NCBI GenBank assembly: GCA_022775045.1
Contig: JALFLB010000039.1
Coordinates: 1-64,000 of the forward strand
Source: Agathobacter sp.
Lineage (GTDB): Bacteria; Bacillota; Clostridia; Lachnospirales; Lachnospiraceae
DNA: 64,000 nt
Direction: 5' to 3'
Positions 10,667 to 25,070 of the stretch are shown here, piece after piece. The notes below the pieces were generated by a model, which saw nothing but the letters and a program-made list of their open reading frames with translations, searched no databases and was not told where the DNA came from. Within the stretch, counting starts at the first letter, position 1; every line of letters begins with the position of its first letter. A program made the translations under genes and the position numbers.

Positions 10667-10688
10667 TATATTATAGGGAATTTCTCCG

Positions 10689-10721
10689 TGTGACTTCCGT
10701 GTGACTCTTTGCGTCTATAAT
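10689..10721 (+). promoter_or_regulatory. SARP-like promoter 1: two direct TGTGAC repeats plus TATAAT
   Basis: TGTGAC at 10689-10694 and again at 10700-10705 (11-bp period), then exactly 10 bases to TATAAT (10716-10721). No -35 hexamer is present at the expected place. The same arrangement occurs at 14682 and 20548. The direct heptad pattern next to a weak -35 is how SARP-type activators bind, and a BTAD/SARP-like regulator is encoded at 13439. Confidence 0.75.
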
Positions 10722-10761
10722 TTGCACAGAAAGTAAAGTGGAATCCTTGGAGGAAAAGATT

Positions 10762-11427
10762 GTGAAAAAAAAGTATTTACTGCTGATTGCAGTGGCAGCA
10801 ATGATTGCTGTGGCAGTAGTCGGAGGAACTTTGGCATCCGGTTATGTAGAATCTGGCAATGTGCTTGAAGAAATTTCCGAGAAGGCTCTCGGTATTTCAA
10901 TTATGTCCGGGAGTACCAAAAGTGGAAGCGGAAGTGCAAATGCAGGTATTGATGTTGTGCCGGGTGGAACCACACAATTGGATTATCGGATTCAGAATGA
11001 TCAGAAGAATGGATACAATCTGTATGCAAAAGTAGATTTGTATTTTGGATGGTCCTCAGATTCACTTGTGGCAGATCAGGAGCGTAATGGATATGTTAGC
11101 CTGCAGTTGGCAAACCACACATTGCCTCTTGTTTCGTCTTATGACAGACAGACGAAGGTTGGTGATTGGATTGTGGCTTACTGTGACAGAGAACAGGCTA
11201 CTCTGTATTATACAAGACCTCTTTCCTATGGGGATTCAGCTGCCTTTTTGGATTCTATATCCTTTAGCAATGCGATGGGGAATTCTTATGCAGGGGCGCA
11301 GTTTTTGCTGGATATGGATGTGACTGCGGTACAGGCAAATAACAGTGAGGAAGCAATCGAGGCAGAATGGGGAGTGTATCCGCATTTTGATAATGGTACA
11401 CTGATTAGTGTATCGGAGACGAGATAA
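10762..11427 (+). CDS. SipW-type signal-peptide secreted protein (TasA/CalY-like), first gene of fibre operon 1
   Basis: About 221 residues from GTG 10762, which has GGAGG 8 bases upstream. The N-terminus is basic (KKK) followed by a long hydrophobic core ending in 'VVGGTLASGYV', the pattern of signal peptides cut by SipW-type peptidases. The rest is a beta-rich, Ser/Gly/Tyr/Asp-rich domain without cysteines apart from one. It resembles TasA/camelysin-class fibre or sheath proteins only at the signal and composition level, so the exact family is uncertain. It heads a three-gene operon behind a TGTGAC-repeat promoter. Confidence 0.65.
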   Translation: MKKKYLLLIAVAAMIAVAVVGGTLASGYVESGNVLEEISEKALGISIMSGSTKSGSGSANAGIDVVPGGTTQLDYRIQNDQKNGYNLYAKVDLYFGWSSDSLVADQERNGYVSLQLANHTLPLVSSYDRQTKVGDWIVAYCDREQATLYYTRPLSYGDSAAFLDSISFSNAMGNSYAGAQFLLDMDVTAVQANNSEEAIEAEWGVYPHFDNGTLISVSETR

Positions 11428-11441
11428 TATAAGGAGTAATC

Positions 11442-12224
11442 ATGAGAAAGAAGTTTGTAGTTTTTGGTTGGGTGCTGGCACTTTGTATTGGACTGCAGAC
11501 AGTTGTTTGTATGGCTAATACGATTCCGGCTGTCCGGTTGACAGATCAGGATGAATTTGAATATTATGCAGATGAGAATGAGAAGGTTAAGGTGGATTCC
11601 CTGTCACTGACAGAATTTTCAGGAATGGCTCCGGGAGATGAACGCACGCAGATTATTCGATTACATAATGACAGTGAAGATACTGTGAACTTTTATATTT
11701 CGCAGAAGACTCTTGATACTCTTGAGGATGATAATCGTTCTTCTGGAGGCGCTTACTATTTTAATCTTCTGGTTGGAGATGATTTTTCGAATGCGGTTTC
11801 GCTGCTGGATTCACAGTCAGGGGGCTACAGTGCGGATGGAACCGGGAGCAGAGAGGGGCTTGCAGAAGTTAAAGAATTGGAGAATTATACCTTTTTAGCT
11901 ACAGTTGAGCCGGGACAGGATACTTATCTGTATTTAACACTGAAGCTGGAAGGCGAGGGAAACGATAACCGTGCAAGCAATAATTATACCGATGCGATTG
12001 CACATTTGCAGCTGTCGTTTCGGGCATATGATGTAGAGCATGAGGTAACATATGGAGAGGACACTGAGATTGTCACGGTGGAGAAACGCGTTACGACAAC
12101 GAAGAAGACAACTCAAGTAAAGACAGGGGATAGTTTTCAGTATGGTGTTTTTGCGGTGATTTTGCTGGCCGGGGTGGTTCTTGTTGTTGTTGCAGTTGTG
12201 AAGCGTAGGAAGGGAGATGCCTGA
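11442..12224 (+). CDS. secreted protein with C-terminal sortase-like sorting signal
   Basis: 260 residues. An N-terminal signal peptide (about 1-26, ending near 'VVCMANT') precedes a beta-rich domain with 'FSGMAPGDERTQIIRLHNDS', a pattern seen in TasA-like or DUF11-like surface domains. Near the C-terminus 'TTQVKTGDSFQYG' is followed by a hydrophobic helix and the basic tail 'KRRKGDA'. This is the layout of a sortase substrate, with VKTGD in place of LPxTG. The sortase half of the protein at 22127 is a candidate partner. Operon 1, 14 bases after the preceding gene. Confidence 0.6.
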   Translation: MRKKFVVFGWVLALCIGLQTVVCMANTIPAVRLTDQDEFEYYADENEKVKVDSLSLTEFSGMAPGDERTQIIRLHNDSEDTVNFYISQKTLDTLEDDNRSSGGAYYFNLLVGDDFSNAVSLLDSQSGGYSADGTGSREGLAEVKELENYTFLATVEPGQDTYLYLTLKLEGEGNDNRASNNYTDAIAHLQLSFRAYDVEHEVTYGEDTEIVTVEKRVTTTKKTTQVKTGDSFQYGVFAVILLAGVVLVVVAVVKRRKGDA

Positions 12225-13315
12225 TGAAAAAGATAGTTCGTTGTAATTTATTCACCTGGCTTTTTGCAATTGTTTTGGTATTGTCAGTGATTCCGCAGAT
12301 GCGTGTGGAAGCGGCATCTACATATACGGTTACATTTCGTGCCGGAAATGTGGGGAGTTTTGATACCCAAAAGGTTAATGAGTCTGTGAAAAATCATAAT
12401 CTTGTTGAAGCCCGGGCTGAGTATGTGAAGCTGAAGGTTGGAAGAGGGCAGAGTGTACAGAGTGCGATTTATGCTGCTTTTGGCAGAGCTGTCAATGGTA
12501 CGGCGGATTTGAATGCGTTGTTTCTTGGTTTTTTAAAAGAAAATGCACAGTATACGCTTTTGGATGAAGCATCCTGGGGACCGAAGGCTACGGATGTAGT
12601 CCGGCATAATGAGGAATATGTGTTGGATTACGGAGTGGTAGTTGATCCGGTTTCTTATACAGTGAACTATGTAGATGTCAGTAGTGGGGAAGCTGTTGCG
12701 GCACCTGTTTTAAGCTATGGAAGTGAAGGGGACAGTGTGACGCTTGCGCCGATTACGGTCAGTGAGTATGAATCAAGCGAAGAGCCTGTTACCATTGTAT
12801 TGTCGAAAGAAAAGGAGAATGTGGTTACTTTTTCCTATACTTATACAGGAGTTACTTATGTACCGGGAGAGACCACCTATCGTACAGAGTATGAATATGT
12901 GACAAATGTTGTTAATGTTCCTGTGAATAATCCTCCGGCCGGAGGGAACGCAAACGTGAATGCGAATGGAAATGCTAATGCTAATGCAAACCAAAATGCC
13001 AATGGCAATGATGGAGGTAATGGAGCAAATGCTGGTGCAGATGGTAATGCGGATGCAAATGCAGAGAATGGAAACGGCAACAATGCGCCGCAAAATGTGA
13101 TTCCGGATGATGATGTGCCATTGACGCCGGGAAATGATGCTTCTATGGGGGAACTGAACGAGATCAAAGAGTCGGAGGTCCCGAAGGCGGCAAATGAGCC
13201 GGCAGGTTTAAATACTTGGATGATAGGGGCGATTGCCGGGGTTGTGGTTCTGGCAGTTGCAGTTGTTCTTGTTACGGTTCATATTCGAAAGAAAAAGAAA
13301 ACGGCAGATAATTAG
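12224..13315 (+). CDS. secreted, membrane-anchored protein with Asn/Ala/Gly-rich stalk
   Basis: 363 residues. The start overlaps the previous stop. A signal peptide (about 1-30) is followed by an N-terminal domain, a MucBP-like or beta segment ('VSYTVNYVDVSSGEAV'), a low-complexity stalk of Asn, Ala and Gly (about residues 236-292), a C-terminal hydrophobic helix and the tail 'RKKKKTADN'. No LPxTG-like motif is obvious before the helix. The stalk suggests a flexible spacer holding the N-terminal domain away from the membrane. Last gene of operon 1, followed by a strong terminator. Function unknown. Confidence 0.6.
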   Translation: MKKIVRCNLFTWLFAIVLVLSVIPQMRVEAASTYTVTFRAGNVGSFDTQKVNESVKNHNLVEARAEYVKLKVGRGQSVQSAIYAAFGRAVNGTADLNALFLGFLKENAQYTLLDEASWGPKATDVVRHNEEYVLDYGVVVDPVSYTVNYVDVSSGEAVAAPVLSYGSEGDSVTLAPITVSEYESSEEPVTIVLSKEKENVVTFSYTYTGVTYVPGETTYRTEYEYVTNVVNVPVNNPPAGGNANVNANGNANANANQNANGNDGGNGANAGADGNADANAENGNGNNAPQNVIPDDDVPLTPGNDASMGELNEIKESEVPKAANEPAGLNTWMIGAIAGVVVLAVAVVLVTVHIRKKKKTADN

Positions 13316-13318
13316 ATA

Positions 13319-13360
13319 AAAACCGTTATGCAAAAGAAGTTGATTGCGTAACGGTTTTTT
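13319..13360 (+). terminator. intrinsic terminator after fibre operon 1
   Basis: Stem AAAACCGTTA ... TAACGGTTTT with a run of nine T. It ends operon 1 before the regulator gene. Confidence 0.85.
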
Positions 13361-13375
13361 TTTATCGGGAAAATG

Positions 13376-13404
13376 TGGATTTTCGATTTCTCAAATGATA
13401 TAAT
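13376..13404 (+). promoter_or_regulatory. possible promoter for the BTAD regulator gene
   Basis: TGGATT (13376-13381), 17 bases, perfect TATAAT (13399-13404), 34 bases before the ATG. It carries no TGTGAC repeats, unlike the three neighbouring promoters, so the regulator may not activate itself. Confidence 0.45.
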
Positions 13405-13438
13405 AAAAAATGTTTGACATTTTAGAAGGGGGTAAAGG

Positions 13439-14638
13439 ATGTTAACAGTTAATTCTCTTGGAAAGTTCCAGCTGACAGATGGCAATGTGGTAGTGAATGA
13501 AGATGATCTTCGCTCCATTATGTTGTCGAAACTGTTGATGTATATTTTGTTATATCGCGATAAAACCTTGACAACGGAAGATATTGCAACTGCAATCTGG
13601 CAGGACGAGGAGATTGATAATCCGGCAGGAGCATTAAAAAATTTGATGTATCGTCTGCGTAAGAATCTCGCAAAATATTTTGGCAATCAGGATTTTATTT
13701 TGACAAATCGAGGGTCATATCGCTGGAATACGGATGTCGAGGTTAATTTGGATATTGAACAGTTTGAAAAACTGATTAATGAGGCTAAGCAGGAAAATGT
13801 GTATGAGAGGGCTATCCTGATGTATGAACAGGCGATTGCAATCTATCAGGGGGATTTCATGACGAAACTGACGGATATGCATTGGATCCTTACACTTAAT
13901 ACATATTATCATTCTCTTTATCTTACCTGCGTGAAGGCTTTGTCTGAGTTGTATCTGAAGATGGAGCGTTATGAGGAGATGGAACGTATCTGTACGGATG
14001 CACTCAAGCTGGAGAATGCAGACGAACAACTGTATTGTTATCAGATTGAGGCTCGTATGCACTGCGGAAAGATTAATCTTGCGTTTGATTCTTATGATGA
14101 AGCTCGAATAATTATGGAGAAGGAGCTTGGTATTCGTAAGACAACTATTCTTAATAAAGTGTATGAGGAACTGATGGCAATCAGTAAGGGTGGTGTCTCG
14201 TACAATATCAGCGAAGTAAAGAAAGACATTGAGGAAGAAAATCCAAGTGGCGTGTTTTTGTGTGGATATCCGATCTTTAAGGAAATCTATCATTTGGAAG
14301 TGCGAAAAAGTACTCGTTCTGATTCGCCGGAAAATCTAGTGCTTTTAACGCTGGAACCCAAGAAAGAGGATACGAAGGAAGTGGCAGAATTTCGTATTAA
14401 GCAGGCAATGAATGGTCTCGAAGAGACCATTTGTGAGTGCCTCCGTGTGGGGGATGTGGCGGCAAAGTATAGCGATTCTCAGTTCATTTTACTTCTGCCA
14501 ACCTGCACAAAGGATTTAGCTATGCTTGTTGCAAACAGAATTGTATCCAAAATGTACGAAAAGAACTCGAAATATAAAAAAGTGAATGTAAAAATAAATA
14601 TTGAAGAGGTTTCTCAGGATGGAAATCTTGTGGATTAG
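13439..14638 (+). CDS. SARP/BTAD-type transcriptional regulator with degenerate GGDEF-like C-terminus
   Basis: 399 residues. Residues 1-100 form an OmpR/SARP-like winged helix ('LSKLLMYILLYRDKTLTTED', then 'LKNLMYRLRKNL'). About 105-250 is a bacterial transcriptional activation (BTAD/TPR) domain. The last 110 residues look like a diguanylate cyclase fold ('CLRVGDVAAKYSDSQFILLL') in which GGDEF is replaced by SDSQF (345-349), so it should not make c-di-GMP but might sense something. It sits between operons 1 and 2. SARPs bind direct repeats overlapping the -35 region, which fits the three TGTGAC promoters here. ATG follows AGAAGGGGG. Regulation of the locus is inferred. Confidence 0.8.
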   Translation: MLTVNSLGKFQLTDGNVVVNEDDLRSIMLSKLLMYILLYRDKTLTTEDIATAIWQDEEIDNPAGALKNLMYRLRKNLAKYFGNQDFILTNRGSYRWNTDVEVNLDIEQFEKLINEAKQENVYERAILMYEQAIAIYQGDFMTKLTDMHWILTLNTYYHSLYLTCVKALSELYLKMERYEEMERICTDALKLENADEQLYCYQIEARMHCGKINLAFDSYDEARIIMEKELGIRKTTILNKVYEELMAISKGGVSYNISEVKKDIEEENPSGVFLCGYPIFKEIYHLEVRKSTRSDSPENLVLLTLEPKKEDTKEVAEFRIKQAMNGLEETICECLRVGDVAAKYSDSQFILLLPTCTKDLAMLVANRIVSKMYEKNSKYKKVNVKINIEEVSQDGNLVD

Positions 14639-14681
14639 GACGGAAAGGCTTCTGTGGATACACAGATGCCTTTTTTATATA

Positions 14682-14714
14682 TGTGACCTTTGTGTGACTT
14701 TCAATTGTTATATT
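14682..14714 (+). promoter_or_regulatory. SARP-like promoter 2: two direct TGTGAC repeats plus TATATT
   Basis: TGTGAC at 14682-14687 and 14693-14698 (11-bp period), then 10 bases to TATATT (14709-14714). Geometry is identical to the sites at 10689 and 20548. It drives the giant adhesin, sipW and a SipW-type substrate. Confidence 0.75.
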
Positions 14715-14762
14715 AAGTACAGTATAAAAGGAATTTTATATATTTATTCAGGAGGTTGCAGG

Positions 14763-17700
14763 ATGAAGTCTGCAGGATTAGGTAAGAAGATAATTGCAAT
14801 GGTGATGAGCACTGCTATGTTTGTCGGCTGCTTTGCGAATACGTCTATTAAGGCTGAGACAACGAACCAGAAGCTGGAAGAAGGGGCAGTTGTACCATTT
14901 AAGGCAACGGTGTTTGATTATGATATGGATAGTATGAATCAGGCAACCATGGACATGGTATATAAAGATGCAAAGAGCGATGAGAAGCTTTGGTCTAATG
15001 GCAAGCTGGATGAGGAGTGGCTTGTACGCGCATATCCTGCATTCTTTTTCACAGATAAAGGCGGTGTAAATGAACGGACTGCCGGCAGTAACTCGAAAAA
15101 GATTTCTACAAGCAACTATAGTATCAATAAGGCAGAGAATAACAGAGTGCGCTATAACTGTCTGGATTCGGGAGCGAGTGACCTTAAGGGTACTGCGTAT
15201 CAGGGATTGGTTGGAAGCACCTTGTACAATAATCTCCCGGATTTTAATTTGTACGGAGTGAATCCGTTTGATATGAATGCGGTAAGTGGAAAAAAAGATT
15301 GTGCCGTATATCAGAATCAGAATGTAGAATTTAAGTATGAGAACGGATACTATGTCCTCGACAGTAAGAAATATGAGTACAAATATGATCAGGCGGGCAA
15401 TACACTTAAGGTTGGAAGAAATGTACAGGGAACAAATGCACAGTTTTTCCCTTTTGACAATATCGGACGAAAAAATTCGGATGGACACAATGTTCACTTC
15501 GGTTTGAGTATGGAAGTGGATTTTTCCATGCCGACTGAGGGAAAGAATAATAATGAAGATTATGTGTTTCAGTTTTCCGGTGATGATGATGTGTGGATCT
15601 TTATCGACGGTAAGCTGATTCTGGATCTGGGCGGTATTCATGAGGCTTCTGCGGCATCGGTCAATTTTGCCCAGGGAATCGTGACTTATGAGAATCATAC
15701 ATATAATGAGACGGGAAGGCTTGGAACAGGAAAAGGAACTTACTATAAAGATCATACGTCCTATTCATTTGCAGAAATCGGTGTGGACAGAAATGCAATC
15801 TGTGATAATAAGCAGCACAAGCTTCAGATTTTCTATATGGAGCGAGGTGGTGGAGAATCGAACTGCAAGATTACGTTTAATATGCCTGTAGTTGGAGATG
15901 GCTCTGGTGACTATTCTTTTACGAAGAAGTCGGCATCGGATGAACGTGTTCTTTCAGGGGCGGAGTTCCAGTTGATTGATATCAGTTCGAAGCAGGTTTG
16001 CGGGACTGCGGTTTCTGATGATAATGGTAAGGTGACATTTAAGGATGTGAAGGCCGGAACTTATTGGGTCAGAGAAACGAAGGCACCGGCGGGATATGAC
16101 CGTGTTGAGGATTATATGCTGGTCGCAAAGAGTATTGGTGATGACCGGTTGGCATTCTCTTTGCAGAAATCAGATGGAACAACAGTTGATGATGTGATTT
16201 ATGATCCGGTTACGGAGGGATTGCATTCGGAGGATGTAACGAAGACAGCAACACTTGACAGCTGGCAGAATCGTACCTATGATATTCAGCTTGGTGCTAC
16301 GGTTGAAGATACAACTATTTCAAGAGATGATCTTCTGATCACGGATCCAATCGATGTTGTGCTGGTTCTGGATGCTTCCTGGTCCATGAATTTTCCAAGC
16401 GCATTGACAACCTATACACGCGGAAATCGTAAACTGGATAAGAATCAGGAATACTATTTCGTGACAGAAAATTCTCAGTCTACCGTTTATCGTGCTTATT
16501 ATGATGATAATGCTGGTTCATGGATGTACATTGACGCATCCAACAACGGAAGTGCTCCGGGAAAGATGCAGGAGAACACTTTATACGAGACCAAGACGGT
16601 ATTAAGGGAATCATGGAACAGCGAGCCAATCCAGCTGATGGCGCATTACTATTTCTGGAGAGACGGTTCGAACCATGTGGAGAACTTTGACCCGAACAAT
16701 CATTCCGGTAGATATTTCTTTAGCAGATATGGAAGCTATGCAGACCGGTTCCCATACTGTGTTGAGTATCTGGAAAATGTGGGCTGGGTATACCGTGAAT
16801 TGAGCGACAGCTCAAGTGATTATCAAATTAATTATAAGAATTATGGGGATTGGAAGCCTTTGATGGTGGATTATAATTACCAGGAGGCAGCTGGTTATAC
16901 CTATACTTACGGCAATAACAACGAGATTAGGCAGTTCTATCGTGCTTCCTCTGATGGTGTTCGCTTTGATCAGATGGAGACGGCGGTGAACAGCTTTATC
17001 GATCAGCTTGCTGCCGGGAATGAAAATACGCGTATTGGTGTTGTATGGTTTAACAGTCAGGCAGAGCAGATGGGTGAAATCCTTGATCTGACCGGGGACA
17101 ATGCAGAGTCTATAAAGAGCAGTATCGCAGCTTTGAGAGGGCAGCTTGCTTCTAAGACTTGTCAGGAAAAAGGAATGCAGGTGGCTCAGGACATTCTTGC
17201 TCAGATGTCTGAACCGGCACAGACATATGCGGTATCCGAAGCAACTGTTGAGACGGAGTCTGATTTGACAGATGGGGAAGGGCAGTCTTCTGAAAACACA
17301 GATGCAGTAACTTCTTCCGATGAAAAAGGGCAGGCTCAGGAAAATACAGATGCAGTGGAAAGTTCTGATGTGGAAGTACAGGGGGATGAAAATGAAGTGG
17401 CTTCCGGTGAGACAGATGGTACCGTATCTGTAGTGGGAACCGGATTGGAAAATGGCGCATCGTCAATTTTAAATGAAGTGACGAATTTGGATAATACGGT
17501 GTCGGAAGTCCCGGAGACACAGGAAGGTGCAAATCTTACAGAGGCAGATTCCGCAAGTGGTGTGAATTCTGCGGGCGTTTCAAAGGATGGAGATACGTTC
17601 GATCAGGAGTCTTTGGATGGTGCAGAAGCAAGCTTGCTTTCAGATGATATGGAAAGCTATGATCCTGCTAATAATAAAAAGTATGTTGTTTTGGTAACTG

Positions 17701-19328
17701 ACGGATGTCCAACGAATGAAACCGTGACGACGGATACGATTTTGGGAGATAACGGACTGAAGGACCAGATTGAGGCATGTGGAGCGAAGATTATGACCAT
17801 TGGTGTTGATATCAATGATTATATGATGGTTGCCGATGAACTTTTGAACAGTATTGCAACAGAAGAAGGTTACTATGTAAAAGGAAGTTCTCTTCAGCTT
17901 CCATCTCTGTTCCAGACAATTCTTAAGGAGGTTGTCGATGAACAGACCAGATATGGAACGGGAACGGTTGTCGATTATATTGATTCGAGATTTGAACTTA
18001 TTGATGCAGAAACCGGAGGTGTGCTGACGGAAGGAACGCAGGTGAACAGTCAGGGTAAAACGGCAACAGAAGCAGATGCGGCAGAAAATACAGGAACCGT
18101 TCATGTGGATGGAAATGGTCAGGTCTATGTAGAATGGACTAATGTGGCGTTAAATGGTTGGGGAGCATTGCTCAAGATACGGGCAAAGGATCCGTATGTT
18201 GGTGGAAATGCGGTGAGTACCAACGGACCGGGATCGGGTGTGACACTTGATAGTGGGGAAAAGTATGATTTTCCACAACCGAAGGTAAATGTAAGAATTC
18301 AGTTTGCACCGGGAAGTACGGATGATACGATTTTCCTTGGTCAGACATTAGAAAGATATTTTGATGACAATCAGCTGGAAAAACTGTTCACGGTAAATGG
18401 TCTGGATACACAGGATGTTGATTTTGTGTACAGTTGGAAAGATGATAAGGATGAGAATCATACCGGTTCTTTAAAAGATTATCAGGCATATATTGCTGCT
18501 TTGACGCCGGATGCCGATATCACGTATCAGCTTAATGTGACAGCGGTCCCAAAGGTTGGAGGAAATGAACAGGCAGCACAGGATGCGGCAGAAAACATGA
18601 AGAATTCTTCCGGAGAACTGTATACAGCAAGTATGCAGAGCGTGGAAGATGCAGAAAGCATTTTTGATGAGAATGGCAAAGATCAGGGGTATATGAAACC
18701 GGCGTACTATTATGTCAAAGTTCTTGCCGGCACGCTGAATCTTTCTAAGTGTTATGATAAAAAATTCGCAGACACACTGCCGTATTCAAAACATGAGAGT
18801 GAGCAGGTAAATGCAATTCAGACGGCGGTGTTTACGATTGAGCGTTACGCAGAGGATACCACCAAGGATTTGATTGAGAATGGTGAAGCAGAGCCGATTG
18901 AAACATTTCAGGTATCCATAACAGATGAGGATTCCGTTCAGGTGGAACATCTGAAGGCTGGTGTGTATCGTGTTGTTGAGGATGAATGGACATGGCGCTA
19001 TAGGGGTGAAAAAGGCATTGTTGAAACCATGGTGTCAGGCATCAATCAGAATAATTTTGAAACAAATGATTTTGAAGAAGCGGATGGTATTTTCTATTTT
19101 GGAAAGTATCGGGATGGATTAACTGCCGGACAGCAGGAGAATACAGTAATCAATCCTCGGGATGAGGTGTTTGCTTATGTTGAACTTGGTTATGAAAATC
19201 GTTATGCAGGTTCAAAATGGCTTGCGGATACCACGAATGTGCTGAACGTGTTTAAGGAGAGAATTGAACAGGATGATGCAAAGGCCAGCGATATACCGAG
19301 TGAAGATGTAGTAGAGGAGCAGAGATGA
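14763..19328 (+). CDS. giant surface adhesin with fibro-slime, Cna-B/SpaA and VWA domains
   Basis: 1,521 residues from ATG 14763, which has AGGAGG upstream; the open frame back to 14601 crosses the promoter and is rejected. A signal peptide (1-30) is followed by a fibro-slime/PA14-like domain ('GDDDVWIFIDGKLILDLGG', about 273), a Cna-B/SpaA domain (about 380-456, 'AGTYWVRETKAPAGY') and a VWA domain with MIDAS 'DASWSMN' at 537. The VWA domain is split by an acidic Ser/Glu/Asp-rich insert (about 818-972) before 'KYVVLVTDGCP'. Another Cna-B-like stretch lies near the end. No C-terminal helix or LPxTG motif is seen, so attachment is probably non-covalent or through fibre partners. sipW overlaps its stop. 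Role as adhesin or fibre tip is inferred. Confidence 0.85.
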   Translation: MKSAGLGKKIIAMVMSTAMFVGCFANTSIKAETTNQKLEEGAVVPFKATVFDYDMDSMNQATMDMVYKDAKSDEKLWSNGKLDEEWLVRAYPAFFFTDKGGVNERTAGSNSKKISTSNYSINKAENNRVRYNCLDSGASDLKGTAYQGLVGSTLYNNLPDFNLYGVNPFDMNAVSGKKDCAVYQNQNVEFKYENGYYVLDSKKYEYKYDQAGNTLKVGRNVQGTNAQFFPFDNIGRKNSDGHNVHFGLSMEVDFSMPTEGKNNNEDYVFQFSGDDDVWIFIDGKLILDLGGIHEASAASVNFAQGIVTYENHTYNETGRLGTGKGTYYKDHTSYSFAEIGVDRNAICDNKQHKLQIFYMERGGGESNCKITFNMPVVGDGSGDYSFTKKSASDERVLSGAEFQLIDISSKQVCGTAVSDDNGKVTFKDVKAGTYWVRETKAPAGYDRVEDYMLVAKSIGDDRLAFSLQKSDGTTVDDVIYDPVTEGLHSEDVTKTATLDSWQNRTYDIQLGATVEDTTISRDDLLITDPIDVVLVLDASWSMNFPSALTTYTRGNRKLDKNQEYYFVTENSQSTVYRAYYDDNAGSWMYIDASNNGSAPGKMQENTLYETKTVLRESWNSEPIQLMAHYYFWRDGSNHVENFDPNNHSGRYFFSRYGSYADRFPYCVEYLENVGWVYRELSDSSSDYQINYKNYGDWKPLMVDYNYQEAAGYTYTYGNNNEIRQFYRASSDGVRFDQMETAVNSFIDQLAAGNENTRIGVVWFNSQAEQMGEILDLTGDNAESIKSSIAALRGQLASKTCQEKGMQVAQDILAQMSEPAQTYAVSEATVETESDLTDGEGQSSENTDAVTSSDEKGQAQENTDAVESSDVEVQGDENEVASGETDGTVSVVGTGLENGASSILNEVTNLDNTVSEVPETQEGANLTEADSASGVNSAGVSKDGDTFDQESLDGAEASLLSDDMESYDPANNKKYVVLVTDGCPTNETVTTDTILGDNGLKDQIEACGAKIMTIGVDINDYMMVADELLNSIATEEGYYVKGSSLQLPSLFQTILKEVVDEQTRYGTGTVVDYIDSRFELIDAETGGVLTEGTQVNSQGKTATEADAAENTGTVHVDGNGQVYVEWTNVALNGWGALLKIRAKDPYVGGNAVSTNGPGSGVTLDSGEKYDFPQPKVNVRIQFAPGSTDDTIFLGQTLERYFDDNQLEKLFTVNGLDTQDVDFVYSWKDDKDENHTGSLKDYQAYIAALTPDADITYQLNVTAVPKVGGNEQAAQDAAENMKNSSGELYTASMQSVEDAESIFDENGKDQGYMKPAYYYVKVLAGTLNLSKCYDKKFADTLPYSKHESEQVNAIQTAVFTIERYAEDTTKDLIENGEAEPIETFQVSITDEDSVQVEHLKAGVYRVVEDEWTWRYRGEKGIVETMVSGINQNNFETNDFEEADGIFYFGKYRDGLTAGQQENTVINPRDEVFAYVELGYENRYAGSKWLADTTNVLNVFKERIEQDDAKASDIPSEDVVEEQR

Positions 19329-19861
19329 AAAAAGTTTGGAACTTTGTGACAACGGTTGTCTTAGTTGTATTATTGGCATTTATTGCGATTATGTATGTGC
19401 CAAAACTTTTTGGCATTGAGCCGATGATTGTTTTAAGCGGAAGTATGGAGCCTACTTATCATGTTGGCTCTCTCCTCTATGTAAAAGAAGCAGATACGGA
19501 TAAGGTTGAGGTTGGTGATCCGATTACGTTCTATCTTGATGAAAGCACTCTGGTTACACACAGAGTTGTAGATATTGATGAAAAAAACCGGACGTATACC
19601 ACCAAAGGAGATGCAAATGATGCGGAGGACGGTACACCGGTAAGTTTTGATCAGGTTCTTGGAATACCGGTATTCAATATTCCACAGGCAGGTTATCTGG
19701 CGGATAAAGTTAGTCAAACGTCGGGCAAGATTATCTACATAGTTGTTATTATTGTTGATTTGATATTGATGTTTATGGGCGATCTGATTTGGTCGGACGA
19801 AAAGGAAAAGGATGGACTGGAAAATGAAAAATCCAAAAAGCATGATTCGAAAGAAGATTAA
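19325..19861 (+). CDS. sipW: SipW-type signal peptidase I (S26B, Ser/His type)
   Basis: 178 residues, overlapping the adhesin stop by 4 bases. TM1 near 8-26 is followed by catalytic Ser40 in 'LSGSMEPTYHVGS'. His80 ('VTHRVVDID') replaces the Lys of ordinary bacterial signal peptidases, as in SipW and eukaryotic Sec11. 'TTKGDANDAED' supplies the acidic residue, and a C-terminal TM precedes a charged tail. SipW of Bacillus processes TasA-class proteins for fibre assembly. Four substrates with SipW-like signals are encoded in this locus (10762, 19824, 20654, 21462), so it is the expected processing enzyme. Confidence 0.92.
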   Translation: MKKVWNFVTTVVLVVLLAFIAIMYVPKLFGIEPMIVLSGSMEPTYHVGSLLYVKEADTDKVEVGDPITFYLDESTLVTHRVVDIDEKNRTYTTKGDANDAEDGTPVSFDQVLGIPVFNIPQAGYLADKVSQTSGKIIYIVVIIVDLILMFMGDLIWSDEKEKDGLENEKSKKHDSKED

Positions 19862-20513
19862 AAACATTTCGCCGTTGGCAGCTGTTCTTATGATTGTTTT
19901 GACAGTGGGAATTACACTGGCGTTACTTAAGAAAGTTACCAATACGCTCTATAATGCTTTTGGGCCGGGAATTGTTAATATTGCTGTTGATGAGGATTTT
20001 GAGGGTGGAGATATTCTGACAGAGGGGTCTGTTGTGAAAAAAGTCCGAATCAAAAACAGTAAGGAAGAGGATCTGAATATTGTACCGGCATATATCCGTG
20101 TTCAGCTTGTCGCGACATGGATGAAGGATGAGGTGGATGAGAACGGAAATGTGCGGTCGGTTGCGGTTCCTGTTGATCCGATGGAGTTTTTGACTTATGA
20201 GCTGAATCTGGCGGATCGTATGGTAGAGGGAAATGTAGAAGGCTACTGGGTAGAAGGAAAAGATGGGTATTATTATTTTACGGAACCGGTCGATCCGGAA
20301 AATTTGACAGATTATCTTTTGGAACGAGTTTCTGTAAAAGAAGGGGCTGAGATACCGAGAGAGGCAGAAGGTGGATATTTGCAGATAAATGTATTGGCAG
20401 ACGCGATTCAGGCGGAGGGCAGTACAACAGAAGATCATGTGAAGGCAGTAAATGATGCATGGGATTCGCCATGTTATTCAAATGGAGAAACACCAATCTA
20501 CAAAAATGAGTAA
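19824..20513 (+). CDS. SipW-type secreted protein, TasA-like, overlapping sipW
   Basis: About 229 residues; starts at 19812 or 19824 are both possible, overlapping the 3' end of sipW in another frame. The N-terminus has basic residues and a hydrophobic core ('AVLMIVLTVGITLALL'), then 'KKVTNTLYNAFGPGIVNIAV', close to the post-cleavage region of the 20654 protein ('VTNTVDNVF'). The rest is a beta-rich acidic domain with 'IVPAYIRVQLVATW', recalling the 'AYIRVKI' segment of the 21462 protein, so the three look paralogous. Translational coupling to sipW is likely. Confidence 0.65.
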   Translation: MKNPKSMIRKKIKNISPLAAVLMIVLTVGITLALLKKVTNTLYNAFGPGIVNIAVDEDFEGGDILTEGSVVKKVRIKNSKEEDLNIVPAYIRVQLVATWMKDEVDENGNVRSVAVPVDPMEFLTYELNLADRMVEGNVEGYWVEGKDGYYYFTEPVDPENLTDYLLERVSVKEGAEIPREAEGGYLQINVLADAIQAEGSTTEDHVKAVNDAWDSPCYSNGETPIYKNE

Positions 20514-20547
20514 AATCAGTAGAGGGTGTGGAAATTAATTTCCTCTA

Positions 20548-20580
20548 TGTGACCAACATGTGACCCGATACCATTATACT
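20548..20580 (+). promoter_or_regulatory. SARP-like promoter 3: two direct TGTGAC repeats plus TATACT
   Basis: TGTGAC at 20548-20553 and 20559-20564 (11-bp period), then 10 bases to TATACT (20575-20580). Just upstream, TAGAGG/CCTCTA (20521-20546) forms a short hairpin without a T run. The promoter drives the two TasA-like genes at 20654 and 21462. Confidence 0.75.
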
Positions 20581-20653
20581 GATATTATAAGGTGTAATCG
20601 AGTATGGATTGCATGCAAATATTAAATTTAAATGTAAAAAGGAGAACAACAAA

Positions 20654-21430
20654 ATGAATAAGAAAAAAGTAGCACTTACAGCATGCGCAGCTGCATTGGT
20701 AGGAACATTGGCAGTAGGTGGAACACTTGCTTACTTAACACAGGTTACCAATACAGTAGACAATGTATTTTCCAGCGATTCTAATCTGACAGGTGAGCTT
20801 GTAGAGCCGAGCTGGAATCAGGAGACTGCTAGCAAGTATGTTCCTGGACAGACAATTGCGAAGGATCCACAGCTGAAGAGCACCTGTGATTTTGATGCTT
20901 ATGTTGCAATGAAGGTTGTTGTTAAGGATAATGATGGAAATGTTATTTCTCTGGATGATTTCCAGAAAACATATGCAACAATTGATGATTTCAATACTGC
21001 AGCATGGGATGAGATTGCAAAGAATGATAATTATGCATTATATATGTATAAGACAACACTTGACAAGAACACAACAACTGCACCTCTGTTTACTAAGGTA
21101 ACCACAAATGCAAAGATGGAGACTATTTACAACAAGACCACAGAGGTTACAGTTGCTTACAAGCAGGTTGACCAGGCTACATATGAGGCTGCACAGGGAA
21201 ATAAGAAGGAAGTAGACGGAAAGTATTATGTAGAGGTTTCTGTTGATTCTAAGAGTTATGACAGCACCGCAACTTACTATGTACTCAAGGATGGAAGCAA
21301 GATGGAAGTGGAGAATCTTGGAAAACTTCCGAAGTTTGATATTGTAGTTACAGGATATATGGTTCAGGCTGATAATGTTGATGTAAATACTGCAAAGACT
21401 GAGCTTACAAATCTGGCAGCTACAAAATAA
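20654..21430 (+). CDS. TasA/camelysin-like SipW-dependent secreted protein, probable major fibre subunit
   Basis: About 258 residues from ATG 20654, preceded by AAAAAGGAGAA. The N-terminus has the SipW-cognate pattern: KKK, a hydrophobic stretch, then 'GTLAVGGTLAYLTQVTN'. The mature domain is rich in Lys, Asp, Thr and Tyr, lacks cysteine except one, and contains 'PSWNQETASKYVPGQTIAKD', a TasA/CalY-type beta-strand motif. It uses optimal AT-rich codons more strongly than its neighbours, which together with its own promoter and strong ribosome site suggests high expression. The subunit role is an inference. Confidence 0.75.
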   Translation: MNKKKVALTACAAALVGTLAVGGTLAYLTQVTNTVDNVFSSDSNLTGELVEPSWNQETASKYVPGQTIAKDPQLKSTCDFDAYVAMKVVVKDNDGNVISLDDFQKTYATIDDFNTAAWDEIAKNDNYALYMYKTTLDKNTTTAPLFTKVTTNAKMETIYNKTTEVTVAYKQVDQATYEAAQGNKKEVDGKYYVEVSVDSKSYDSTATYYVLKDGSKMEVENLGKLPKFDIVVTGYMVQADNVDVNTAKTELTNLAATK

Positions 21431-21461: not shown

Positions 21462-22028
21462 ATGAAGCGTAAGATTTCACTTGGCATTGCCGCTGTGGCT
21501 ATGGTGCTTACCGTAGCCATCGGCGGTACGCTTGCTTATTTCACGGACCGTGATGAAGCAACTAACGTAATTACCATGGGAAAAGTTCATATTAGTCTTG
21601 TTGAAAAGACGGATTCTACCGGAGAGAAGGAATATACGGATGGTATTCGGTATGACGGTGTGAAACCGGGGGATGTGATCAGTAAGAAACCGATTGTCAA
21701 GGTGGCATCTGATTCGCAGCCTGCCTATATTCGGGTGAAAATCAACAGAACCAGTTCAGATGCAGAAGTGTCAAAGCATCTGTCTGAATTGGGATTGGAT
21801 ACAACCGGATGGATTTATGTGAACGGATATTACTATTATCCGCAGGTTGTGCAGCCGGGGACGAATTTGACGGTATTTACCCATGTTACCATTCCGAAAG
21901 AATGGGGAAATTTTTTTGTGGGTAAAACGTTTCATATCAGCATTACCGCAGAAGCAATTCAGGCTGCAAATTTTAATCCGGATTTTAGTTCTAAGATTGA
22001 TCCATGGAATGGTGTGAAAATCGAGTAA
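21462..22028 (+). CDS. TasA-family SipW-dependent secreted protein
   Basis: 188 residues. Signal 'MKRKISLGIAAVAMVLTVAI' is followed by 'GGTLAYFTDRDEATNVITMG', the textbook SipW/TasA motif with post-cleavage 'FTD...N.IT.G'. Then comes 'VHISLVEK' and a beta domain with 'KPGDVISKKPIVKVASDSQP' and 'AYIRVKINRTSS', as in TasA and camelysin. It shares a promoter with the 20654 gene (31 bases between them) and ends at a strong terminator. It may be a minor subunit or anchor of the fibre, like TapA or CalY partners; this is inferred. Confidence 0.8.
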   Translation: MKRKISLGIAAVAMVLTVAIGGTLAYFTDRDEATNVITMGKVHISLVEKTDSTGEKEYTDGIRYDGVKPGDVISKKPIVKVASDSQPAYIRVKINRTSSDAEVSKHLSELGLDTTGWIYVNGYYYYPQVVQPGTNLTVFTHVTIPKEWGNFFVGKTFHISITAEAIQAANFNPDFSSKIDPWNGVKIE

Positions 22029-22126: not shown

Positions 22127-23395
22127 ATGAAGAAATTATTTCAGGCGTTGGGAACGATTCTGTTGATTGGATTAGTAGTAATTAGTATTCCCTTTACAAT
22201 ACCAAGATTTTTGGGTTATTCCATTTTCGAAGTGATTTCAGACAGTATGTCACCAGAGTATCCGGTAGAAAGTGTTATCTATGTGAAAGATGCTAATCCG
22301 GATGAGATTACAGTGGGGGATGTCATCACGTTTTCTCTTGGAACGGATACTACGCAGGTTATGACCCATCGAGTAGTGGCAATTGATACGGACAATGGAT
22401 TATTTACCACAAAGGGGGATGCAAATGAGCAGGCTGATGTAAGTCCGGTATCTTTTCAGAGGCTTATTGGAAAGCCGGTTTATAAACTTTCCCATATGGG
22501 GAAAGTGGTATCACTTTTTGAAACCACACAGGGAAGAGTTTTGTTGGCATGTCTGGTTGGATTGGTATTTATTCTATGGTTTTCTGCAGATCATTTAGAT
22601 TCTGCCGATGAACAAATATCAAAAGAAAAAATAAAAGGCAAATTAAATCGTTCTACAACAATTATATTTGTTGTGGGGATTGCAATGATTTTGTTTGCAA
22701 TTTGGAATATGTATCGGATATCGAAGGATTACCGGGATTCCAATGATTTGTATGAACAGCTGAAGCAGGAATATGTCAAAGTGCCTGTGCAGGATGTGCC
22801 CGAATGGTATCAGATGGCGGAAATCGATTTGCCTTCGCTCCAGAAACAAAACCCGGATGTAGCAGGATGGCTTCTTTTTGAAAATGAAGACATTAGTTAT
22901 CCGCTTATGTATTCGGGGGATGATACGACTTATCTGCATACGGCATTAGATGGAAGCTCTGCGACTGCCGGTTCTATTTTTATCGAAGGTGGAAATCATC
23001 CGGATATGGAGGATAGTCATACGATTATTTATGGACATAATATGCGTAATCTGAGTATGTTTGGAAAGCTGCGCTACTATAAGCAGGAAGATTACTATAA
23101 AGACCATGCATATTTTCAGATTATTACGAACGCAGGCGTATATCGTTATCAAATCTTTGCTTGTGAGGAGATTTCAGCAGACAGCTTTATCTATCATGTA
23201 CCTTATGCTGCAGACGAAACCTTTGAACAGTTTATTGCAAAGCTGTATCGTTTGTCCTATTATGATACGGGAGTTGTTGCCACGAAGGAGGATAAGATTG
23301 TAACACTATCCACATGCTCAAGGTCAGGAATGAGGTTTGTTGTTCATGGTGTACGGATAGACAGTTATTGTGACGATACGAAAAAGGAAGAATAG
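22127..23395 (+). CDS. signal peptidase I-class B sortase fusion protein
   Basis: 422 residues from ATG 22127 (AAAGGGGG upstream). Residues 1-155 are a complete S26B signal peptidase: TM near 8-28, Ser40 in 'ISDSMSPEY', His81 in 'MTHRVVAID', Asp98 in 'TTKGDANEQ'. TMs follow near 138-153 and 178-195. Residues 225-410 are a class B sortase: 'DLPSLQKQNPDVAGWLLFE', His304 in 'IIYGHNMRN', Cys397 in 'TLSTCSRSG' and Arg403 in 'MRFVVHG'. Both active sites are intact. No frameshift is needed to join them. It could cleave signal peptides and then anchor or polymerise the exported fibre proteins of this locus. Substrates are inferred. Confidence 0.9.
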   Translation: MKKLFQALGTILLIGLVVISIPFTIPRFLGYSIFEVISDSMSPEYPVESVIYVKDANPDEITVGDVITFSLGTDTTQVMTHRVVAIDTDNGLFTTKGDANEQADVSPVSFQRLIGKPVYKLSHMGKVVSLFETTQGRVLLACLVGLVFILWFSADHLDSADEQISKEKIKGKLNRSTTIIFVVGIAMILFAIWNMYRISKDYRDSNDLYEQLKQEYVKVPVQDVPEWYQMAEIDLPSLQKQNPDVAGWLLFENEDISYPLMYSGDDTTYLHTALDGSSATAGSIFIEGGNHPDMEDSHTIIYGHNMRNLSMFGKLRYYKQEDYYKDHAYFQIITNAGVYRYQIFACEEISADSFIYHVPYAADETFEQFIAKLYRLSYYDTGVVATKEDKIVTLSTCSRSGMRFVVHGVRIDSYCDDTKKEE

Positions 23396-24699: not shown

Positions 24700-25043
24700 G
24701 TTAAAGTCATTGAGCGAAGGTAAGTACGGCAGATGATTCTTTTCAGAGAGTCAACGATGGTGGGAGTTGATAAGATAGTTTGTTCGGAATGGATTCGTTA
24801 GATGCGAGGTGAATATGGTGATTTCATTAGTAGCTGAGCCGTTTCCCCACGTTATAGGGGTGAAGATATCGAAACAATGATATTGTTTCTGTATCATAGA
24901 GGTTACGTAATTGGTGGCGGTTATTTCTGGTTCGGAAGTAACTGCTTTTTCTTTTGAAGGAAGAAAATTGCGCGTAGCAAAGAAGGGTGGCACCACGAGA
25001 AAATTCGTCCCTGATATAGTAAAAGCTATATCAGGGACTTTTT
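24700..25043 (+). promoter_or_regulatory. tryptophan T-box leader with terminator/antiterminator
   Basis: This fills the gap of about 420 bases before trpE. The conserved T-box sequence AAGGGTGGCACCACGA is at 24983-24998, followed by a terminator stem GTCCCTGATATAG/CTATATCAGGGAC (25007-25038) and a T run. The Stem I region includes the AG-bulge and GATGGTGGGAG elements around 24746-24768. The likely specifier is TGG (24790-24792) in GGAATGGATT, matching tRNA-Trp. Uncharged tRNA-Trp would bind, stabilise the antiterminator and allow transcription of the trp genes. Confidence 0.92.
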
Positions 25044-25070
25044 AGTTTGTTAGAAAAGGAGAAAGAGGTT

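Follow-up and report, generated by a model that had tools for sequence, protein, structure and literature searches.

The window analysed here is a stretch of 64,000 nucleotides at the start of contig JALFLB010000039.1 in a draft genome of Agathobacter sp. (GenBank assembly GCA_022775045.1), a member of the Lachnospiraceae within the Clostridia; the draft is 2.45 Mb long and 90% complete. Between 10.7 and 22.0 kb, three probable transcription units for secreted proteins surround one regulator gene, and each unit is preceded by the same promoter element, in which two direct copies of TGTGAC stand at a fixed distance from each other and from a -10 box. Comparison of sequences across related genomes indicates that the regulator, a protein with a BTAD domain, very probably reads these three promoters. 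The features of this locus all lie on the forward (+) strand.

Gene content of the locus

The first promoter/operator (10688-10721) carries TGTGAC at 10689-10694 and 10700-10705 and the -10 box TATAAT at 10716-10721, and it precedes an operon of three genes (10762-13315). The first of these (10762-11427) begins with GTG and encodes a probably secreted protein with a TasA-like N-terminus and no family match, the homologues of which are kept at the same place in homologous loci. It is followed by genes for a probable membrane-anchored surface protein, with a weak match to DUF5305 that falls below the cut-off (11442-12224), and for a probable surface protein in which an Asn-rich linker and a C-terminal membrane anchor can be read from the sequence (12224-13315). 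Family searches with this last protein gave no match. A terminator-like hairpin with a fold z-score of -4.4 (13316-13370) separates the operon from the regulator gene (13439-14638), which is flanked on both sides by such hairpins.

The second promoter/operator (14681-14714) lies between the regulator gene and the second operon, with hexamers at 14682-14687 and 14693-14698 and the -10 box TATATT at 14709-14714. The operon encodes a surface protein of 1521 residues with fibro-slime/PA14, SpaA and von Willebrand factor A (VWA) domains (14763-19328), a SipW-type signal peptidase identified by family match (19325-19861), and a BsaA-like SipW-dependent matrix protein that scores below its family cut-off (19812-20513). 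The third promoter/operator (20547-20580), with hexamers at 20548-20553 and 20559-20564 and the -10 box TATACT at 20575-20580, precedes a TasA-like pair. Family searches assign the first gene of the pair to a TasA/BsaA-like protein with a SipW-dependent signal peptide (20654-21430) and the second to a SipW-dependent TasA/camelysin-like protein (21462-22028).

The regulator has 399 residues and combines an OmpR-type winged helix, a BTAD domain and a degenerate GGDEF-like domain. It is the sole BTAD protein found in the genome. Its recognition helix, residues 62-75, is encoded at 13622-13663, with the codon for Asn68 at 13640-13642. The C-terminal domain contains RxxD (Arg336-Asp339, encoded at 14444-14455), the I-site motif of GGDEF domains, with SDSQF in place of the GGDEF signature five residues further along.

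Two further features were observed downstream of the TasA-like pair. The protein encoded at 22127-23395 is a fusion of a SipW/archaeal-type signal peptidase, in its N-terminal half, to a class B sortase, in its C-terminal half, and several relatives align with just one half at a given place. A T-box leader (Rfam RF00230, 93.8 bits, gathering threshold 93) occupies 24701-25015, upstream of an open reading frame at 25047. Since this leader, which lies outside the locus, is the only Rfam match at gathering thresholds, riboswitch control of the locus was rejected.

The repeat element and its distribution

The original prediction placed direct-repeat sites at 10689, 14682 and 20548, and the coordinates, the A or G before and the C or T after each hexamer, and the spacing of 10 base pairs (bp) to the -10 box were all correct. 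The search pattern that accompanied it, RTGTGACY-N4-RTGTGAC, has one N too many and returns zero matches. The full form of the element is RTGTGACY-N3-RTGTGACY-N9-TANNNT, equivalent to TGTGAC-N5-TGTGAC-N10-TANNNT. With the corrected pattern, the proposed genome-wide search finds just one further exact copy outside the window (G000:C39:23468-23500, locus L004), upstream of a gene for a membrane protein of 59-74 residues, beside which stands a gene that we take to be SpoVT/AbrB-like. The homologue of this small membrane protein in another genome, G034, is also found behind a copy of the element, with a gene for a probable surface protein of 568 residues intervening. Six more hexamer pairs in the Agathobacter genome have one mismatch, none of which is recovered by the extended search allowing one mismatch.

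The predicted absence of a -35 element is borne out by a simple sigma-70 scan, which pairs no TTGACA-like hexamer with any of the three -10 boxes; an ordinary sigma-70 promoter was rejected on this basis. The scan does report one weak candidate (9/12) at the third site, composed of GTGACC from the second repeat and a different -10, TATTAT at 20583-20588. CRP/FNR sites are inverted repeats of the form TGTGA-N6-TCACA, and a CRP-like site was rejected because the half-sites are direct, not inverted, at all three places. In the window, TGTGAC is absent from 12898 to 14682, a span that includes the region before the regulator gene, so that autoregulation via the element was also rejected.

The rigidity of the element was tested in 61 loci, made up of the window and 60 regulator-centred loci and amounting to 1.10 Mb, over distances of 6-60 bp. 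Pairs of TGTGAC occur 48 times at a distance of 11 bp, whereas the other 54 distances average 0.15 pairs and none has more than 2; reversed hexamers at 11 bp occur 0 times in the same sequence. TATAAT, with at most one mismatch, follows exactly 10 bp on in 46 of the 48 dimers; no other spacing from 0 to 30 is seen more than five times. At least one such dimer is present in 29 of the 61 loci. The window is itself the source of the finding, and loci L225-L228 were chosen after a site had already been seen there; without these five, 41 dimers, 39 of them with the box, are found in 56 loci. The genus sample of 62 genomes contains 34 occurrences of the exact pattern, spread over 15 genomes, and 0 of its backward-read control. 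When the R/Y flanks are included and one mismatch is allowed, there are 35 occurrences in 14 of the 62 genomes and one in the control. The reversed-pattern and distance controls rule out chance. A local test that allows two mismatches and ignores the -10 box is not significant alone (4 found, 4.5 expected); the signal resides in the exact copies and their spacing.

The same element was searched for in samples of the genus (62 genomes), the family (397 genomes from 334 genera) and the class Clostridia (391 genomes). The extended motif is present in all 13 of the genus genomes with a regulator of at least about 44% identity, two of which carry the gene in pieces, versus 1 of the 49 others (Fisher 1.7e-12). 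Within the family, the motif occurs in 27 of 397 genomes, and the reversed control in 3. Of the 18 genomes in which a regulator is matched at E<=1e-60, 15 contain the motif, versus 12 of the 379 others. A regulator at E<=1e-20 is found in 22 of the 27 motif genomes, all 22 having a regulator with Asn68, versus 97 of 397 overall. Within 15 kb of an Asn68 regulator lie 30 of the 52 family sites, where 0.44 would be expected. In two genomes, G006 and G048 (loci L052 and L054), the regulator gene is in two frames, reflecting either a broken gene or an assembly error.

Motif comparison across homologous loci, as had been proposed, reveals that the sites keep their places before the homologue of the first gene of operon 1, before the VWA/SpaA gene and before the SipW/TasA-like genes in many diverged loci. 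The VWA/SpaA gene in these loci stands behind the regulator, with its site upstream. In four genomes with regulators only 26-29% identical to that of the window (G433, G076, G400 and G156), the regulator gene stands just upstream of the site, which points away from it. The class was searched by motif alone, with matches in 7 of the 391 genomes (G000, G241, G830, G713, G778, G477 and G679) and 3 in the control. G000 is the genome of the window, and G241 also belongs to the Lachnospiraceae. G830, G713 and G778 belong to one other family and contain several sites each; all three carry a regulator that has ALKNLMYR in its helix and shares 34-38% identity with that of the window, and SipW/TasA-like genes adjoin their sites. 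G477 and G679 have a single match each, with no regulator or SipW/TasA-like genes in the fetched stretch.

The sites had been predicted to precede fibre genes. All three in the window do stand before surface or fibre genes, but the targets elsewhere are wider, and include adhesin-like, LPXTG-type and small membrane proteins. Dispersed sites precede genes for a protein with Ig-like domains, a collagen-binding/SpaA protein with an LPXTG anchor, small membrane proteins, a serine-rich protein that matches adhesin models below the cut-off, and other large proteins without family match. Given that the targets extend beyond fibres, "surface-protein regulon" is a better name than fibre regulon.

Two other observations concern the sites themselves. 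An A-rich stretch lies 8-12 bp upstream of the first hexamer in a set of 74 TGTGAC sites and 29 sites of the variant TGTAAC described below, a set that was filtered on the -10 box and not on the stretch; it is possibly contacted by the C-terminal domain of the alpha subunit of RNA polymerase. Two complete elements stand in tandem in L040 (8524 and 8606, 82 bp apart) and in L192 (18858 and 18959, 101 bp apart).

Residue 68 and the switch in the repeat

Beside one set of regulators, both repeats read TGTAAC rather than TGTGAC, with the same two spacings. The 61 loci contain 11 TGTAAC dimers, of which 9 have a -10 box at 10 bp. Loci with a TGTGAC dimer and a -10 box hold 30 regulators, 28 with Asn68 and two with Val68, and a local TGTAAC dimer with a -10 box is accompanied by Thr68 in 6 of 6 regulators. 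In a column test of 27 Asn and 6 Thr rows, residue 68 is the sole column of 399 that is invariant in both classes. Residue 71 comes second, with Tyr beside TGTGAC versus Phe or Ser beside TGTAAC. Three rows were left out of the test, namely L043, which also has Asn68, and L059 and L246, both with Val68; the regulator fragment of L054 is too short to class.

The covariation extends to the family sample. The exact TGTAAC element has 29 sites in 12 of the 397 genomes, with one in the reversed control, and a Thr68 regulator is present in 10 of the 12, including G107, G421, G326 and G381. In G107, G326 and G381, TGTAAC sites were found genome-wide although the fetched regulator locus had none, and G421 is counted on the genome-wide search. 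G162 has both an Asn68 and a Thr68 paralogue, each of which adjoins its own motif. When the helix columns are excluded from tree construction, the motif still switches twice, each time together with the residue (2/2).

Residue 71 divides the Thr68 genomes further, as TGTAAC sites are present in 1 of the 12 with His or Tyr at this position versus 9 of the 10 with Phe or Ser. The two that depart from this division are G326, which has His71, and G094, which has Phe71 without a site. In L279, at about 3737, a regulator with Ser68 adjoins a mixed dimer, in which one hexamer is TGTGAC and the other TGTAAC; TATAAT follows after 10 bp. L050 and L051 contain second paralogues, 34-36% identical, with a recognition helix that has changed too far to be aligned, and these fetched loci hold neither a TGTGAC nor a TGTAAC site. 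Around regulators that have a different recognition helix, a de novo search for 11-bp repeats found nothing convincing.

The original prediction paired the element with the BTAD regulator, and this pairing gains strong support from the co-occurrence of the two, the conserved placement in diverged loci, the concerted switch and the motif-only finds outside the family. Several observations weigh against it. The main counter-case is G098, the only genome of its genus in the sample, which is 96% complete and has five exact sites but lacks any BTAD protein; its only matches to the window protein are GGDEF-like stretches. Three of the five sites clearly precede genes for large or anchored surface proteins (one in L231, two in L232), that in L229 precedes genes for a small protein and a probable secreted protein, and that in L230 is without clear assignment. 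G039, an 86%-complete draft, is the single genus genome with the motif but without a close regulator, and has two sites and no BTAD protein. A BTAD search of the motif genomes without a regulator (G098, G039, G067, G241, G206, G302 and G053) found none in 7 of 7. Loss of the repeats where the regulator is kept had been named at the outset as an observation that would count against the pairing: the repeats are kept in many loci, but the extended motif is missing in 13 of the 35 family genomes with Asn68 that were examined, among them G064, in which an exact dimer is present and its flanks fail the pattern. In three loci (L091, L093 and L102), no clear surface gene lies within 250 bp of the site.

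The rule for residue 68 has its own difficulties. The Val68 regulators of L059 and L246 lie beside TGTGAC dimers, and both genomes also hold an Asn68 paralogue. The exact TGTAAC element is missing in 12 of the 22 Thr68 genomes examined, 11 of which have His or Tyr at residue 71. In many regulators with BTAD and GGDEF-like domains (L249-L288), residue 68 is V, A or S, and no operator was found for these. Since only two independent switches are seen, they are too few for significance, and shared descent could also have caused the covariation.

Sites without a BTAD protein, as in G098, could mean that a response regulator of the PhoB/OmpR type binds the element instead. PhoB/PhoP boxes belong to the same class of architecture, with two 11-nucleotide direct repeats, about seven bases of which are conserved, read by tandem effector domains in the available text of one account (PMC4415409). 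PhoP and AfsR compete at afsS. The sipW-bsaABCRSD locus of Clostridium perfringens likewise specifies a SipW-dependent BsaA-type extracellular fibre, and it is described, in the text available, as controlled by the two-component system BsaRS, the response regulator of which binds the sipW promoter (PMC7395162); control in the present locus is seemingly SARP-like rather than two-component, and the BsaA-like protein of the window scores below the family cut-off. Unlike PHO boxes, which are read by a two-component response regulator, the element described here tracks the BTAD protein across genomes, often adjoining its gene, and its occurrence in the family is restricted (27 of 397 genomes). The base switch follows the BTAD recognition helix, and the three extra-family genomes found by motif alone carry the BTAD regulator. 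With the distribution compared for the BTAD protein only, binding by a response regulator instead is considered highly improbable.

Proposed SARP-like activation and a possible c-di-GMP signal

The BTAD protein as reader of the element resembles the SARP family of Streptomyces. Pfam identifies BTAD in 39 of 39 and Trans_reg_C in 37 of 39 members of an alignment of regulators (A1), and a profile of 39 regulators matches AfsR (8hvr) with an E-value of 3.9e-14 and EmbR (2fez) with 7.1e-10. The NCBIfam models for FevR (41.6 bits, cut-off 500) and AfsR (23.8 bits, cut-off 1430) are both missed, and the regulator is therefore described as SARP-like rather than as one of those named proteins. A SARP in Clostridia had been expected to be a notable find in itself. 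Homologues of the regulator are not rare, given their presence in 97 of 397 family genomes, and so this alone is not the surprise.

The recognition helix aligns to that of AfsR without gaps, with the pairs K67/R87, N68/T88, Y71/S91, R72/R92, R74/R94 and K75/K95. In the available text of a structural account, the AfsR SARP dimer touches each 11-bp repeat over its initial 8 bp, the remaining 3 being free, and the bonding partner of T88 is the base at -36/-25, which is repeat position 5 (PMC10936776). Here, eight bases are conserved in each repeat, three are mostly free, and the switching base is position 5, although to equate it with AfsR position 5 assumes that the repeat starts at R. The same account places the 3' repeat of SARP promoters 8 bp from the -10 element (PMC10936776). 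The distance here is 9 bp after the 8-bp unit RTGTGACY, or 10 after TGTGAC, in 46 of 48 dimers, and how far it differs from 8 bp depends on which base is counted as the end of a repeat.

By analogy with AfsR, the protein encoded at 13439-14638 would be a SARP-like one-component activator that binds directly, as a head-to-tail dimer, to the two 11-bp repeats, each with eight read bases (RTGTGACY) and three free ones. The repeats, set at a constant spacing from the -10 box, would take the place of the -35 element. The dimer would recruit RNA polymerase through contacts such as those of AfsR-type activators, with sigma region 4 and the beta flap. Asn68 of the recognition helix is predicted to read the G at repeat position 5, and Thr68 would pair with A. 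The targets would constitute a surface-fibre and surface-protein regulon, consisting of SipW-dependent TasA/BsaA-like and fibro-slime/VWA/SpaA proteins and, elsewhere, of LPXTG-type and adhesin-like proteins. Sites over the -35 region might instead block RNA polymerase, and the direction of the effect is unreadable from sequence, so that the BTAD protein could bind as a repressor or need a partner. The three -10 boxes without a -35 and the rigid spacing are, however, as described for activator-dependent SARP promoters in the text available (PMC10936776), and repression or a required partner seems improbable.

The regulator resembles SARPs in its domain order, the geometry of its operator and its contact residue, and it departs from them in the host group, the targets, the code of the repeats and the C-terminal domain. 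As with AfsR and the afs box of Streptomyces, a winged helix is joined to BTAD, two 11-bp direct repeats with eight read bases overlap the -35 region and keep a constant distance to the -10 box, and a homologous residue would contact the base at repeat position 5. Unlike that system, the host belongs to the Clostridia, the targets are surface-fibre and adhesin genes instead of antibiotic clusters, the repeat has another sequence, and a C-terminal degenerate GGDEF domain takes the place of NOD/TPR. The large SARP-LAL regulators of Streptomyces also have a SARP domain followed by a cyclase-like region, which the available text of that report does not describe as a GGDEF domain (PMC3367932). No described target of the SARP-like family discussed here was found in the open-licence literature.

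The C-terminal domain may link the regulator to cyclic di-GMP (c-di-GMP). The Pfam GGDEF score for the window protein is 22.8 bits, under the cut-off of 23.8, and rises to 24.7 with its neighbours in a six-frame search. Among the 39 members, 25 match Pfam GGDEF at E<=0.01, and diguanylate cyclase structures are matched at 1.1e-7 by profile. GG(D/E)EF is present in 0 of 99 homologues (103 rows, less 4 without the stretch), and RxxD, five residues before, is kept in 98 of the 99. A six-frame scan, at least one entry of which looks spurious, finds RxxD with 0 of 10 canonical GGDEF motifs in 12 loci from the same genome and with 6 of 30 in all fetched loci. The genome holds 26 GGDEF matches, the regulator included, and therefore c-di-GMP is probably made.

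Judged by these motifs, the C-terminal domain might be a catalytically dead GGDEF domain that binds c-di-GMP at a kept I-site, with a likelihood put at slightly under even, and would then gate the activator, a step less sure than the DNA part of the mechanism. Compared by sequence, it resembles degenerate GGDEF receptors for c-di-GMP in that the active site is lost and RxxD is kept; it differs from them in being joined to a SARP-type DNA-binding domain. PelD and CdgG are reportedly receptors of this kind. The presence of RxxD alone does not amount to c-di-GMP binding, and there is an even chance that the domain is not a sensor of the messenger, with RxxD serving fold or dimer contacts and another ligand, or the abundance of the regulator, setting activity. 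The near-invariance of RxxD in degenerate domains versus its scarcity beside canonical motifs speaks against this, as does the probable production of c-di-GMP. A non-sensing domain would bear on the signal alone, and would not conflict with recognition of the element by the BTAD protein as outlined above.

Taken together, a one-component family of SARP-like regulators read by c-di-GMP, with the order winged helix, BTAD and dead GGDEF, might govern fibre and adhesin regulons in gut Clostridia through a rigid element similar to the afs box, with Asn68 specifying G and Thr68 specifying A. In that scheme, which is offered tentatively and at somewhat less than even likelihood, c-di-GMP would set transcription of matrix genes directly, without a two-component system or a riboswitch. 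For a SARP-like family present in about one-quarter of the family genomes sampled, the analysis provides an operator and a regulon together with a rule that links residue to base, as well as an evolutionary test of the AfsR-DNA contact that is independent of structure. If these assignments are true, it would become possible to predict from sequence how gut bacteria express their surface fibres and adhesins, and the motif alone has already led to the regulator in three extra-family genomes. If the GGDEF-like domain does sense c-di-GMP, it would suggest a route by which the messenger reaches the matrix genes of these bacteria.

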